From: Candidatus Vecturithrix granuli
GTDB taxonomy: Bacteria; Moduliflexota; Moduliflexia; Moduliflexales; Moduliflexaceae
Length of the DNA: 47,918 bases
Assembly (NCBI GenBank): GCA_000739535.1
Contig: DF820476.1
Location: 33,964 to 81,881 of the forward strand
Reading direction: 5' to 3'
In this document: in pieces, positions 13,586 through 33,972 of the stretch
Layout: each line of letters starts with the position of its first letter
How positions within the stretch are numbered: position 1 is the first letter of the stretch
Position numbers and translations under genes: made by a program
The notes under the pieces: generated by a model
Databases searched by the model: none
What the model saw: the letters and a program-made list of their open reading frames with translations, nothing else
Told to the model about the DNA's origin: nothing

Positions 13586-14356
13586 ATGGAATTGCTGAAA
13601 GCGCAAGATATCACCATGGAATTTGGCGGCCTGGTTGCCCTGGAGCAACTCAATTTCTCGGTAGAACGAGGCCGCATTTTCAGCTTAATCGGCCCGAACG
13701 GAGCCGGAAAAACCACGTTTTTTAATGTGATCACCGGGTTTTATCCCCCCTCAAACGGCAGTATTCAGTTTGACGGAGTCGAGCTGGTGGGAGTGAAACC
13801 GGAGCAGATTACCAGTTTCGGCATTGCGCGTACATTTCAGAATATTCGCCTGTTTGCCAATATGACCGCCCTTGAAAACGTGATGGTTGGCCAGCATTGC
13901 CGCATGAACGCCGGGGTGTGGGGCGCGCTCAGCCGTAACAAAAAAACCATGATCGAGGAAAAGCACGTGCACCGACGCGCTTATGATCTGCTGAAACAAG
14001 TCAACTTACACAAGCAGGAAGACGTGCTTGCGAAAAATTTGCCCTATGGTGAACAGCGGCGGCTGGAAATTGCTAGAGCGTTGGGAACTGAACCGAAACT
14101 CCTGCTCTTAGACGAACCCTCGGCCGGCATGAACCCGCATGAAACTCTGGAACTGATTAAACTCATCGGACGTTTGAATCGAGAATTAGAGATCACGATC
14201 CTCTTAATTGAACATGATATGCGCGTGGTGATGAATATCTCAGATAAAGTGATCGTGTTAGATTACGGCAAAAAAATCGCAGAGGGCACTCCCGAAGAAG
14301 TGCAGAGCAACGAAAGAGTTATTGAAGCCTATCTGGGCAAAAAACGGAATAGATGA
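13586..14356 (+). CDS. livG: LivG-type ABC ATPase
   Basis: 256 residues. Walker A GPNGAGKTT, Q-loop in ARTFQNIRLF, signature variant LPYGEQRRLEIARAL, Walker B LLLLDEPSAGMNP, H-loop LLIEHDMRVVM. Energises the LivHM permease. It starts 7 bases after the livM stop; an in-frame start at 13562 would overlap livM, and the GAGGAG at 13567-13572 fits the ATG at 13586 only with long spacing, so the start is slightly uncertain. Confidence 0.94.
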   Translation: MELLKAQDITMEFGGLVALEQLNFSVERGRIFSLIGPNGAGKTTFFNVITGFYPPSNGSIQFDGVELVGVKPEQITSFGIARTFQNIRLFANMTALENVMVGQHCRMNAGVWGALSRNKKTMIEEKHVHRRAYDLLKQVNLHKQEDVLAKNLPYGEQRRLEIARALGTEPKLLLLDEPSAGMNPHETLELIKLIGRLNRELEITILLIEHDMRVVMNISDKVIVLDYGKKIAEGTPEEVQSNERVIEAYLGKKRNR

Positions 14357-14365
14357 GAGAATATT

Positions 14366-15088
14366 ATGGCAAAATTAGAAGTCAATAACATTCATACATT
14401 TTACGGCAATATCGAAGCCCTGAAGGGCGTGTCGCTCTCGGTCGATGAAGGAGAAATTGTCACGCTGATCGGCAGCAATGGAGCTGGCAAGAGCACCACC
14501 TTGAACACGATTTCCGGCTTATACAAACCGCGACAGGGAGAAGTATCGCTGGAAGGGGAACGTATTGATCAGCTTCCGGCGCACACGATCGTCGCTAAAG
14601 GCATTTCTCAGGCTCCCGAAGGACGCAAGATCTTTGCGCGCTTGACAGTCAAAGAAAATCTGGAAATGGGCGCGTTTATCCGTACAGATGGCCCAGAGGC
14701 GATCAAACGCGATATAGAGCATGTGTATGCCCTGTTTCCCCGTTTGCGCGAGCGCGAATGGCAGATTGCCGGAACCCTGTCTGGAGGCGAACAGCAGATG
14801 CTCGCCATCGGACGCGCTTTGATGTCTAAACCGCGCATTCTCTTATTGGATGAACCCTCGATGGGTCTGGCGCCGCTGCTGGTTGATACGATTTTCGACA
14901 TTATTGAAGAAATCAACAAACAAGGCATGACGATTTTATTAGTCGAACAGAACGCCCAGGTCGCCCTTTCTATTGCGCACCGCGGCTACGTCATGCAAGC
15001 CGGAGAAATTGTTCTGCACGATACCGCCAAAAACTTGAGAGAAAATGAAATGGTCCGTCGCCTGTATTTAGGAGAAGAAGGATTATAA
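14366..15088 (+). CDS. livF: LivF-type ABC ATPase
   Basis: 240 residues, second ATPase of the importer. Walker A GSNGAGKSTT, Q-loop SQAPEGRKIFARLTV, signature LSGGEQQMLAIGRAL, Walker B LLLLDEPSMGLAP, H-loop LLVEQNAQ. Nine bases after livG. Last gene of the operon, followed by a good terminator. Confidence 0.95.
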   Translation: MAKLEVNNIHTFYGNIEALKGVSLSVDEGEIVTLIGSNGAGKSTTLNTISGLYKPRQGEVSLEGERIDQLPAHTIVAKGISQAPEGRKIFARLTVKENLEMGAFIRTDGPEAIKRDIEHVYALFPRLREREWQIAGTLSGGEQQMLAIGRALMSKPRILLLDEPSMGLAPLLVDTIFDIIEEINKQGMTILLVEQNAQVALSIAHRGYVMQAGEIVLHDTAKNLRENEMVRRLYLGEEGL

Positions 15089-29692: not shown

Positions 29693-31315
29693 ATGGAAAA
29701 TGCGGGAATATCCAGATCATCGTTATCTGAAATGACGCAAGAGGTGAAATTACACATTCAAACTCGCTATCCATTGATCTATCTGGTATCCTGGGAAGAA
29801 GACCGGGTGATCCATGAAATCGAGAAAATTGCGATTGAAGAGGATCAACGCAAAAAAGTTTATATCTGGACAGAAACCGAGGGATTAAAGAATCTTGTGC
29901 TTGATGATACTGATAACACAGTGACTGATCCGCTGCAAGTTCTACACCATATCGTACAAGCTCAGGAACGGGCCCTGTATGTGTTACTGGATTTTCATGC
30001 GTTTTTGACCAATCATCAGGTGGTTCGCAAAGTTCGAGATGTCAGCAAAGCGTTGAAGAGCAGCAATAAAACCGTGTTATTCCTTTCGCCCAAATTGGTG
30101 CTGCCGGATGAACTTTCAAAAGAAATCGTGGTTTTTGATTTTGATCTGCCGACCCTTGATGAATTGGGAGTGGTGCTTGATGAATTCGTCGAACAAGCCA
30201 AGCAGGATCAACGCTTAAAGGGAGTACGGTTGAAAAAGGAGCAACGTGAACGCTTATTGAAAGCCTCGCAGGGCTTGACGATTGATGAGATGCGGAGCGC
30301 TCTGAGTAAATCAGTGGTGGCGCATCAAAAAATCGGTGAAATGACGATTCCGATGATGTTGGCTGAAAAAAAGCAGATCATTCGTAAGTCAGGGGTCTTA
30401 GAGTATTTTTCGCCAGAAGAAACCTTTGATGAAATTGGAGGGATCCCACTTTTGAAACGCTGGCTTTCCCAACGAGATAAGGCGTTTACGGAAGACGCCC
30501 GCAAATTCGGATTGCCTGTGCCTAAGGGCTTATTACTAGTCGGGGTACAGGGCTGTGGGAAATCCTTAACAGCTAAGGCGGTCGCATCGCAATGGAAACT
30601 CCCCCTTTTACGATTTGATATTGGCAAAGTGTTTAGCGGACTGGTCGGATCTTCCGAAGAGAATATCCGCAAAGCCATTAAGCTGGCGGAATCCATTGCC
30701 CCGTGCATTTTATGGATTGATGAAATTGAAAAAGGGTTTTCAGGGTTTTCAAGTTCGAATGTGAGTGATGCCGGCACTGCCGCCAGGGTATTTGGCACGT
30801 TTTTGACCTGGATGCAAGAAAAAGTCAAATCGGTGTTTGTGATTGCGACTGCGAATGATATTAGCCTCCTTCCTCCCGAACTCCTCCGGAAAGGACGGTT
30901 TGATGAAATCTTTTTTGTTGACTTGCCAGGCCCGTATGAACGTCAGGAAATTTTTCGTATTCACTTGAAAAAACGCCATCGCGCGCCGCATCAGTTTGAT
31001 CTGGAGTCGCTTTGCCGGCGTTCTGAAGGATTCAGCGGGGCCGAAATTGAGCAGGTGATTATTTCCGCTTTGTACGATGCGTTTGAACACAATCGCCCTC
31101 TTGCAACGGCTGATATTCTGAACAGTTTACAAGAAACCGTGCCCCTTTCTCAGACTATGGCCGAACATATTTCAGCGTTGGGGGCCTGGGCCGAAACACG
31201 GGCGCGACGTGCTTCGGGAACGGGACGTGACGCTAGCGATGTTCACACGATAGGAAAATCAGGGGATCCAGAAACTCACCTCGAAGTTGCTGACATGACT
31301 TTGAGATATACTTGA
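29693..31315 (+). CDS. Ycf46-like AAA ATPase
   Basis: 540 residues. An N-terminal domain of about 240 residues (TRYPLIYLVSWEEDRVIHEI, LDFHAFL) is followed by an AAA module: Walker A GVQGCGKS (284-291), Walker B ILWIDEIE (339-346), and arginine-finger block RKGRFDE (399-405). The domain order and N-terminal sequence match the Ycf46 family of cyanobacteria, plastids and many bacteria, whose role is poorly defined (carbon-related regulation has been reported in cyanobacteria). No protease domain. The receiver-PAS-GAF gene follows in the same direction. Confidence 0.87.
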   Translation: MENAGISRSSLSEMTQEVKLHIQTRYPLIYLVSWEEDRVIHEIEKIAIEEDQRKKVYIWTETEGLKNLVLDDTDNTVTDPLQVLHHIVQAQERALYVLLDFHAFLTNHQVVRKVRDVSKALKSSNKTVLFLSPKLVLPDELSKEIVVFDFDLPTLDELGVVLDEFVEQAKQDQRLKGVRLKKEQRERLLKASQGLTIDEMRSALSKSVVAHQKIGEMTIPMMLAEKKQIIRKSGVLEYFSPEETFDEIGGIPLLKRWLSQRDKAFTEDARKFGLPVPKGLLLVGVQGCGKSLTAKAVASQWKLPLLRFDIGKVFSGLVGSSEENIRKAIKLAESIAPCILWIDEIEKGFSGFSSSNVSDAGTAARVFGTFLTWMQEKVKSVFVIATANDISLLPPELLRKGRFDEIFFVDLPGPYERQEIFRIHLKKRHRAPHQFDLESLCRRSEGFSGAEIEQVIISALYDAFEHNRPLATADILNSLQETVPLSQTMAEHISALGAWAETRARRASGTGRDASDVHTIGKSGDPETHLEVADMTLRYT

Positions 31316-31372: not shown

Positions 31373-31432
31373 TCGCCGTGCTCAAATTCACACATTTATG
31401 CGGTCTCAAGTATAGTTTTGGAGAATGCGTCC

Positions 31433-32749
31433 ATGAGAAAAGTTGCAATTATTGATAATGATCGAGTATCTGTTGAGGCTTTAGCGAATATCATGATCCA
31501 GGAAGGATATGCCGTGATTAAAGCCTATAATGGGCTTGAAGGATTTAGTATTATTCGGTCGCATGTCCCTGAGATTGTGGTGCTTGATCTGTTTATGCCC
31601 GGGATTGACGGCATTCGCTTACATCGGTATCTGAAAACCGAACCGCAATTTGAAACGATCAAAACGATTGTCTTATCGCCCTTGACGTTAGAGGAAACGC
31701 TGGCGATTATGGACACTAGTGCGGATTTTTATATTGCAAAAGGGTATATCATGGATGTCGCCGATAATGTCATGCGCAGTCTGCGTCTGTTCCAGGATGA
31801 GCAGCGAAAAATCTCTTCTGAAGATCGCACCATGGGTTTTGAAGGGCGTTCTCCGCGTGTCGTTGTCGAAGAATTATTGGCCGAACGTCGTCATTACGAA
31901 GCCATTATGCACAATGTTGGCGATGGTATCCTGGAAATCGATAGCGAAAATATTGTAACGTATATCAATCCTGCTGGAAAAGAAATCATTCGCAAACAGG
32001 AAATGAATATTGTCGGTCACCATGTGGCTGATGTGTTAGGAAAGCGATATGATGGACAATTTCAGGAAATTTTGCAGAAGTTGAAGACGGCGGCCTCGCA
32101 GATCAATATGGAAATTCCCTTAATGTATGGCAAAATGACGCTAGATTTCAGCTTTGCCAATATTCTGTCTGAGAACTCAACCTATATTGGATCGCTCTTG
32201 ATTTTTCAGGATGTCACGTATTTGACTGAGCGTATCCGTGAACTGACGCTGCTCAACGACGTCGGACGCTTGCTGACGTCCACCCTGGATTTTAACGAGG
32301 TTCTGCATATTCTGATGAGCCAGATCCAGCGGATTCTGGGGGTGGAAGCAATATCTTTGCTTTTAGTGGAAAAAGAAACCAAAGACCTGATTTTTGAAGT
32401 GGCTTTAGGCATGGCAGGAACGTCAATTAAAAATAAGCGATTAAGCTCTGGCAAGGGAATTGTCGGGTGGGTCGCCAAAACAGGGAAACCGTTATTGATT
32501 CCCGATGTGTATGCAGATCCTCGTTTTGATCGTTCCATTGACGAAAGTACAGGGTTCAAAACCCGGTCAATGATTTGTGTGCCCTTGAAAATTCGCAATG
32601 AAGTCATCGGCGTGATTCAGGTAATTAATCATGGCGATGACGATCCGTTTACCGAAGATAATATGTATCTGCTCTCCTCAATTTCAATGTACGCCTCGAT
32701 AGCGATTGAACATGCCAATCTCTATCAGGAACTTCACCGCGAAGATTGA
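31433..32749 (+). CDS. Receiver-PAS-GAF signalling protein
   Basis: 438 residues, soluble. The receiver domain (1-120) has acidic DND near residue 8 and phospho-acceptor D52 in VVLDLFMPG. PAS about 155-275 (GDGILEIDSENIVTYINPAG), GAF about 285-435 (LTSTLDFNEVLHIL, GKGIVGWVAKTGKPLLIPDV, SMICVPLKIRNEVIGVIQVIN). No kinase, cyclase or DNA-binding output, so it probably passes a signal to a partner. The ATG at 31433 has GGAG before it. It directly precedes the acetyltransferase-hydrolase fusion (6-base gap), suggesting an operon and a functional link. Confidence 0.88.
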   Translation: MRKVAIIDNDRVSVEALANIMIQEGYAVIKAYNGLEGFSIIRSHVPEIVVLDLFMPGIDGIRLHRYLKTEPQFETIKTIVLSPLTLEETLAIMDTSADFYIAKGYIMDVADNVMRSLRLFQDEQRKISSEDRTMGFEGRSPRVVVEELLAERRHYEAIMHNVGDGILEIDSENIVTYINPAGKEIIRKQEMNIVGHHVADVLGKRYDGQFQEILQKLKTAASQINMEIPLMYGKMTLDFSFANILSENSTYIGSLLIFQDVTYLTERIRELTLLNDVGRLLTSTLDFNEVLHILMSQIQRILGVEAISLLLVEKETKDLIFEVALGMAGTSIKNKRLSSGKGIVGWVAKTGKPLLIPDVYADPRFDRSIDESTGFKTRSMICVPLKIRNEVIGVIQVINHGDDDPFTEDNMYLLSSISMYASIAIEHANLYQELHRED

Positions 32750-32754
32750 ACAAG

Positions 32755-33972
32755 ATGCACGAGTTATTGAACAGATTTCCGCTCGAAACCGAGCGATTGC
32801 TGCTGCGAGTCGCGTCTCCTGACGATGCACAATTTCTCGTCCGCTACTATACAGAAAATAAGGAGTATTTAGCGCCGTGGGAACCTGTGCGCTCTGAGGA
32901 ATTTTACACGCTCTCCTTCTGGCAGACCATGTTGCAAGAAGCCCGCCAGGAATTTCTGAACGGCAAGAGTATGCGCTTAGTCTTTTCTTTAAAATCTTCC
33001 GCCCCGGATCCCGTTGTGGGCGTGGCGAATTTCAATAACATGATCCGCGGCGTGTTTCAAGCGTGTTATCTGGGCTATAGCATTGATCATCGCTATCAGG
33101 GGCAGGGGCTCATGTACGAAGCGTTACAATATGCCATCGCATTTGTGTTTGAGCATTTGCGTTTGCACCGCGTCATGGCGAATTACATGCCGCGCAATGA
33201 ACGCAGCGGCAATCTGCTGCGAAAATTAGGCTTTATTCCTGAAGGCTATGCCCGTAATTATCTGAAAATCGCCGGAAAATGGGAAGATCATATCCTGACT
33301 GCGCTGGTCAAACCTGAAGATGAAACCTTTTCTTCTACTTCTGGGAGGGATGGGAGGTGGGGAAAACCGTTGCAAGAAATTTCATTTCTTTTAAAAGCCC
33401 TTCAATTTGCCGCAGATAAACACCAACATCAACGCCGAAAAAACCAGGCGGCTTCGCCATATATTAATCATTTGATCGAAGTTGCCGAATTGCTGTGGGA
33501 AATTGGGAATGTGCGCGATCTTGACACCATTGTTGCTGGTATCCTGCACGATACGATTGAAGATACAGACACCTCGTCGGAAGAGCTTGAAAGCACGTTT
33601 GGGCCGAAGATTCGCCGCATTATTGAAGAAGTCACTGATGATAAACGCCTGCCGAAAGAAGTACGCAAGCAACTGCAAATTGAACGAGCGGGCGAAGCGT
33701 CGTGGGAAGCGCGTCAGATCAAACTCGCCGACAAAATCTGCAATGTGAACGATCTGCACGATGCGCCTCCGACAGACTGGTCGTTACAACGCCGAATAGA
33801 CTATGTTGATTGGGCTGAACATGTGGTGCGCGGATTGCGTGGTACCAACGCCTTGCTCGAACAGCAGTTTGATGAAGTGTGCAGACAAGTGAGACACCAT
33901 CTGCTTGAACAATTAGGTAGTGGTTACATGGGAAGTGATGCGTTCCCTGAGCGAAGTCGAAGGGAACGGTGA
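32755..33972 (+). CDS. RimJ/RimL acetyltransferase fused to MESH1-type HD hydrolase
   Basis: 405 residues. Residues 1-190 are a GNAT acetyltransferase of the RimJ/RimL type (ETERLLLRVASPDDAQFL, YSIDHRYQGQGLMYEAL, NERSGNLLRKLGFIPEGYARNY). After a short linker, residues about 205-385 match small MESH1/HDDC3-like ppGpp or NADPH hydrolases: RRKNQAASPYINHLIEVAELL (H239), ILHDTIEDTDT (H265, D266), EEVTDDKRLPK, KLADKICNV (D326). The metal ligands H, HD and D are all present, so it should be active. There is no synthetase or TGS domain. The last residues (GSGYMGSDAFPERSRRER) are encoded by an intergenic repeat that has replaced the original end. An upstream TTG overlapping the preceding stop is an alternative start. 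Confidence 0.9.
   Translation: MHELLNRFPLETERLLLRVASPDDAQFLVRYYTENKEYLAPWEPVRSEEFYTLSFWQTMLQEARQEFLNGKSMRLVFSLKSSAPDPVVGVANFNNMIRGVFQACYLGYSIDHRYQGQGLMYEALQYAIAFVFEHLRLHRVMANYMPRNERSGNLLRKLGFIPEGYARNYLKIAGKWEDHILTALVKPEDETFSSTSGRDGRWGKPLQEISFLLKALQFAADKHQHQRRKNQAASPYINHLIEVAELLWEIGNVRDLDTIVAGILHDTIEDTDTSSEELESTFGPKIRRIIEEVTDDKRLPKEVRKQLQIERAGEASWEARQIKLADKICNVNDLHDAPPTDWSLQRRIDYVDWAEHVVRGLRGTNALLEQQFDEVCRQVRHHLLEQLGSGYMGSDAFPERSRRER
33916..33972. repeat. GGTAGTGG-ended repeat reaching into the hydrolase gene
   Basis: GGTAGTGGTTACATGGGAAG is nearly identical to the sequence at 47829-47848, and the following hairpin GTTCCCT..AGGGAAC matches 35450-35477 in reverse. It encodes the last 18 residues and stop of the upstream gene. 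Confidence 0.65.

Follow-up and report, generated by a model that had tools for sequence, protein, structure and literature searches.

A RimJ-type acetyltransferase and a MESH1-type HD hydrolase joined in one open reading frame of Candidatus Vecturithrix granuli

RimJ is an N-terminal acetyltransferase that associates with pre-30S particles and aids their assembly even without acetylation (PMC2440530). Ribosomal protein S5 is modified by RimJ only within pre-30S particles, and (p)ppGpp is an inhibitor of YjeQ and Era, two GTPases of ribosome assembly (PMC9032327). MESH1 and Mesh1-L proteins (PDB 3nr1, 5vxa and 3nqw) are small, single-domain HD hydrolases. A bacterial small alarmone hydrolase (SAH) hydrolyses (p)ppGpp and pppApp and requires Mn; judged by kcat/Km, it favours ppGpp over NADPH roughly a thousandfold (PMC9765508). 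For human MESH1, phosphatase activity is described on CoA (kcat/Km 3.3 per s per mM), on acetyl-CoA and on further acyl-CoAs, and the study suggests that bacterial SAHs may dephosphorylate CoA too (PMC13221220). Alarmones, NADPH and, by analogy with the human enzyme, CoA are candidate cell substrates of stand-alone bacterial MESH1. In Candidatus Vecturithrix granuli the two families meet in a single open reading frame, which links the MESH1 question to an acetyl-CoA-using factor acting on assembling 30S subunits and leads to two definite proposals: that alarmone is removed locally while ribosomes assemble, and that CoA serves as a substrate.

The frame lies in the window, the whole stretch of 47,918 nucleotides that was analysed (contig DF820476.1 of assembly GCA_000739535.1), on its plus strand like every other window feature described here. 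It runs without internal stops from an ATG at 32755 to a stop codon ending at 33972, with a TTG at 32746 as a possible alternative start, and encodes 405 amino acids. Pfam finds Acetyltransf_3 at residues 14-160 (6.2e-21) and HD_4 at residues 215-342 (6e-19), and the product divides into a RimJ-type N-acetyltransferase half (residues 1-190, 32755..33324), a linker of 15 codons (33325..33369) and a MESH1-type HD hydrolase half (residues 206-392, 33370..33930). The last codons are a copy of a dispersed repeat (33945..33964), the 20-base motif CCCTGAGCGAAGTCGAAGGG, which is found at 178 places in the genome at no more than one mismatch (control 0). In frame, the codon score is 0.26 for the RimJ half and 0.17 for the MESH1 half, the 16 genes of the window spanning 0.03-0.27, and both halves score poorly in the other frames. 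The linker, with only 14 scored codons, scores -0.25, unlike coding sequence, and is probably a former intergenic spacer. That an acetyltransferase is fused to a MESH1-type HD hydrolase, as an earlier note on this DNA had claimed, is borne out by the frame itself and by Pfam, NCBIfam and PDB matches. A single-sequence structure model of the fusion has a mean pLDDT of 39.8, which makes it useless and silent on domain packing; a joint alignment of both halves had put hydrolase rows on the acetyltransferase half and was left out of the folding.

Like RimJ (PRK10809.1; 3igr), the N-terminal half comprises the whole catalytic domain, scores above the curated cut-off and groups with RimJ in the tree. 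At a cut-off of 190 bits, the RimJ equivalog PRK10809.1 (NF008072, NCBIfam) matches residues 7-188 with 214.5 bits, which narrows the RimJ/RimL type originally proposed to RimJ, and the best solved relative by sequence in the PDB is RimJ 3igr (1.2e-39). For the tree, 103 foreign RimJ-matching loci gave 101 distinct rows without a stop (102 with the query), of which 36 (surplus Nostoc, Dyella and Luteibacter) were thinned before building to leave 66; the acetyltransferase half groups among 56 RimJ-side rows against 10 others with an SH-aLRT of 99. It has no resolved sister inside the RimJ side, and its nearest row is an Aminicenantes sequence (54%). The motif YQGQG in the fusion is presumably the acetyl-CoA loop as in RimJ. 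The free RimJ-side proteins compared, of approximately 183-199 amino acids, end at the domain, whereas the fusion continues into the hydrolase. Of C54 and C105, the two cysteines that were mutated in E. coli RimJ, the fusion keeps only a C105-like Cys104, judged by eye against an enterobacterial row (L092). The S5 gene is present in the genome, with a predicted start MSR.. from a TTG after AAGGAGG, so that Ser follows the initiator Met in the predicted protein. A phage origin of RimJ was considered and rejected: viral contigs gave 4 pattern matches and 0 relatives.

The C-terminal half matches human MESH1 (3nr1) with E=1e-47 and fly MESH1 with 1.4e-46 in a PDB sequence search, in which the next kind of entry, Rel/SpoT, reaches only 8.7e-18; the resemblance to the small alarmone hydrolase type is thereby upheld. 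It was aligned with human and fly MESH1 and 13 other free MESH1 rows, of which L119 and L146 are partial; residue numbers of the human protein were obtained by counting along its chain. Residues H239, H265, D266, E269, D270 and D326 align to human H35, H61, D62, E65, D66 and D122, positions which we take to bind metal or to act in catalysis; the claim that all HD metal ligands are kept agrees with this alignment. Also kept, in human numbering, are R24, K25, K97, K101, Q104, N126, W138, R142 and Y146, the last three of which may be linked to the nicotinamide riboside recognition motif of metazoan-type MESH1, while K116 is Arg in the fusion as in two other rows. A search of viral contigs with this half gave 80 loci at 30-43% identity, which served for alignment only. 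The full HD domain, the metal and catalytic residues and the lack of a synthetase domain are common to MESH1/Mesh1-L and the fusion, which differs in having a RimJ domain at its N-terminus and a short C-terminal tail derived from a repeat. With long RSH proteins (Rel/SpoT) the fusion has the HD domain in common, but TIGR00691 scores 73.2 bits, far below its cut-off of 499.2, and Pfam gives no match to RelA_SpoT synthetase, TGS or ACT domains. With 405 amino acids and an acetyltransferase, the fusion falls outside the strict definition of a small alarmone hydrolase as a small, single-domain protein (Atkinson et al.).

The gene is preceded by an AAA+ ATPase gene (29693..31315, Pfam AAA 5.2e-31), the first of a conserved group, and by a gene for a receiver-PAS-GAF protein (31418..32749, Pfam Response_reg, PAS_4 and GAF), for which ATG 31433 is the likelier start. 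The fusion starts 5 bases past the stop of the receiver gene, in keeping with the likely operon seen earlier, and its ATG at 32755 has no Shine-Dalgarno match; together these suggest translational coupling to the receiver gene. In the closest relative, G001, which alone represents the rest of the family among the genomes searched, the AAA+ gene (75% identity over 505 amino acids) and the receiver-PAS-GAF gene (67.6% over 435) are followed directly by a MESH1-like ORF of 147 codons (L129:8041-8484, minus strand), with no RimJ between. This ORF, which matches at 47% over 76 residues at its end, lacks the stretch bearing H35, H61, D62, E65, D66 and K97, an in-frame loss of the HD core, and is either a remnant or a repurposed mini-protein. 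In the MESH1 tree, from which the partial rows L119 and L146 were left out and in which almost all forks are weak, the row nearest to it by both path and identity is the fusion. At E<=0.001 only this remnant and a long, Rel-sized ORF match in G001, and no RimJ match was found there. Because the remnant stands at the same place without RimJ, MESH1 appears to be the resident and RimJ the newcomer. Judged from these two genomes, the order AAA+, receiver, MESH1 is likely the older one into which RimJ was inserted later, and in the sister lineage MESH1 would be undergoing decay or reduction. With its core lost in G001, the hydrolase is dispensable in the family. In the two remaining genomes of the order just the receiver gene was matched, and in part only, which does not bear on gene order. 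A reading as a defence system was also rejected, since the fusion has no PADLOC match; the product of the AAA+ gene does match IetA in PADLOC, but only over residues 267-495.

The idea of a conserved fusion family was dropped, as the genome of the window was the only one of those searched to match both halves together. There was no second such match among 59 genomes, among sets of 385, 39 and 5 genomes (matches at E<=1e-20) or among sets of 1, 7 and 195 genomes (matches at E<=1e-40), sets that overlap and together cover only part of known diversity. The 80 loci kept from 119 related stretches contain no second fusion, and in 176 plasmid records none is covered to more than 80% and no fusion is among the 30 matches listed. 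Across 153 loci, many of which extend only 1.5 kb past the match, 105 have a RimJ-like match and 34 a MESH1/RSH match, and both occur together only in the two loci that carry the gene of the window itself. The earlier note had looked to relatives with separate genes as the evidence to set against a fusion; this is borne out in part, in that genomes such as G412 and G421 encode RimJ and MESH1 on different contigs and G001 has its MESH1 remnant without RimJ. In the literature searched, which leaves many subscription papers outside it, there is no report of a RimJ-MESH1 fusion and no paper that brings together RimJ, acetyltransferase and HD domain. As far as searched, RimJ and MESH1 are a new domain pair, seen in one genome. 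With the join in one genome only there is no argument from conservation; it looks real and so far unique, and could be a single recent event instead of a conserved machine.

The reading preferred here, tentatively and at less than even confidence, is that of a genuine, lineage-specific two-enzyme protein, whose substrates and activities are predicted from its families. A rimJ gene would have been inserted behind the receiver-PAS-GAF gene and ahead of MESH1, the resident gene; as rimJ lacks an in-frame stop, ribosomes translating it would continue across the former spacer and on into MESH1. With acetyl-CoA, the N-terminal half would acetylate a protein N-terminus, the role that RimJ has for S5 in pre-30S particles. 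The C-terminal half would have Mn-dependent 3'-(pyro)phosphohydrolase activity, with (p)ppGpp and (p)ppApp as its most likely substrates. The tether might then bring alarmone removal to the assembling 30S subunit, where (p)ppGpp inhibits RsgA (YjeQ) and Era. The genome has a long Rel (contig C10) and two further RelA_SpoT-domain ORFs, so that the cell probably makes alarmone. Such a bifunctional protein, with a (p)ppGpp/(p)ppApp hydrolase coupled to a factor visiting 30S assembly, is thus put forward with some hesitation: the fusion is known from one genome, G001 has lost the MESH1 core, the linker is spacer-like and no acetyltransferase was noticed by eye beside 10 free MESH1 genes (13 loci tried), all of which tell against a functional tether. 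Against a role on S5 stands G001 again, which has the same type of S5 N-terminus yet no RimJ match. The joint control of acetylation and of alarmone or NADPH level that was first suggested for this protein is a possibility.

The linker also carries the signals on which the next explanation turns. A Shine-Dalgarno-like GGAGGTG (33353..33359), a match of 7 bases, stands upstream of an in-frame TTG (33370..33372) that coincides in the alignment with the N-termini of free MESH1 proteins. The genome was surveyed for such signals in 134 ORFs of at least 300 codons from 288 kb (the window and 12 other stretches): of 2199 in-frame start codons inside these ORFs, just 6 are preceded by a match of at least 7 bases, and at the other in-frame start codons within the fusion the match is at most 4 bases. 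Given the spacer-like codons of the linker and the Shine-Dalgarno match before the TTG, the gene may yield both the fusion and a free MESH1, the TTG at 33370 being a candidate internal start; under the preferred reading of a functional tether this start would supply free MESH1 in addition. The same signals fit an accidental join nearly as well: RimJ would have lost its stop and read harmlessly into MESH1, the internal TTG would make the working MESH1, and the tether would have no role. This explanation, in our estimate also somewhat short of even and almost as likely as the functional tether, draws on the spacer-like codons, on a strong ribosome-binding match just before MESH1 where the ATG at 32755 has none, on the confinement of the fusion to one genome among those searched and on the decay of MESH1 in G001. 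However, the TTG lies 12 bases after GGAGG, at the long end of the spacing range (seen in 2 of the 59 start-zone cases that have at least 5 matching bases), TTG is a minority start (6 of the 59), and in the absence of a stop every RimJ translated carries MESH1. If accidental, the locus is a clean snapshot of gene fusion by stop loss in which the old start signal is still visible in the linker.

An assembly error near residue 195 had been named as the other threat to the fusion. A gross artefact is unlikely, because the order of the AAA+, receiver and MESH1 genes matches that in G001, which rules out a gross misjoin of MESH1, and because both halves are codon-typical in frame; a single-base error near the end of RimJ is the part of this objection that stands, though as an improbable one. 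Two TGA triplets in the +2 frame (33315 and 33321, within 33315..33323) lie about where free RimJ proteins end, and a one-base indel near 33300-33315 could hide the true stop of RimJ, leaving two adjacent genes in reality, as a one-base shift upstream would end RimJ at these triplets. The MESH1 start signal in place and the separate genes of other genomes would suit such an error, but wrong-frame stops in so short a range are expected by chance, which is the likely origin of these, and the upstream AAA+ and receiver genes are full length when compared with G001.

Least likely, with a slim chance, is that the halves share CoA, the MESH1 half stripping the 3'-phosphate from the CoA or acetyl-CoA of RimJ to give dephospho-CoA and so limiting or metering acetylation: the 3'-phosphatase activity of human MESH1 on CoA and acetyl-CoA raises the idea that CoA could be common to both and the aligned catalytic positions of MESH1 are kept, but in the literature consulted no bacterial MESH1 is shown using CoA, the bacterial SAH acts far less well on NADPH, a cofactor, than on alarmones (PMC9765508), the turnover of RimJ would be too low to require bulk CoA removal, and free MESH1 genes have neither a RimJ match in the same locus, among the 153 loci above, nor, by eye, a GNAT neighbour (no acetyltransferase near 10 genes, 13 loci tried). 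Were it true after all, slight as that prospect is, the fusion would be an acetyltransferase with a built-in off switch and the first genetic hint of a bacterial MESH1 in CoA metabolism.

The two RelA_SpoT-domain ORFs of the window's genome lie in tandem on contig C14 (L237:11400-12482 and 13615-14694), each of approximately 360 amino acids with a long C-terminal extension. Among the free MESH1 genes, that at L255:3973-4656 (minus strand) lies, as judged by eye, between an alanyl-tRNA synthetase-like gene and a tRNA thiolation enzyme-like gene.
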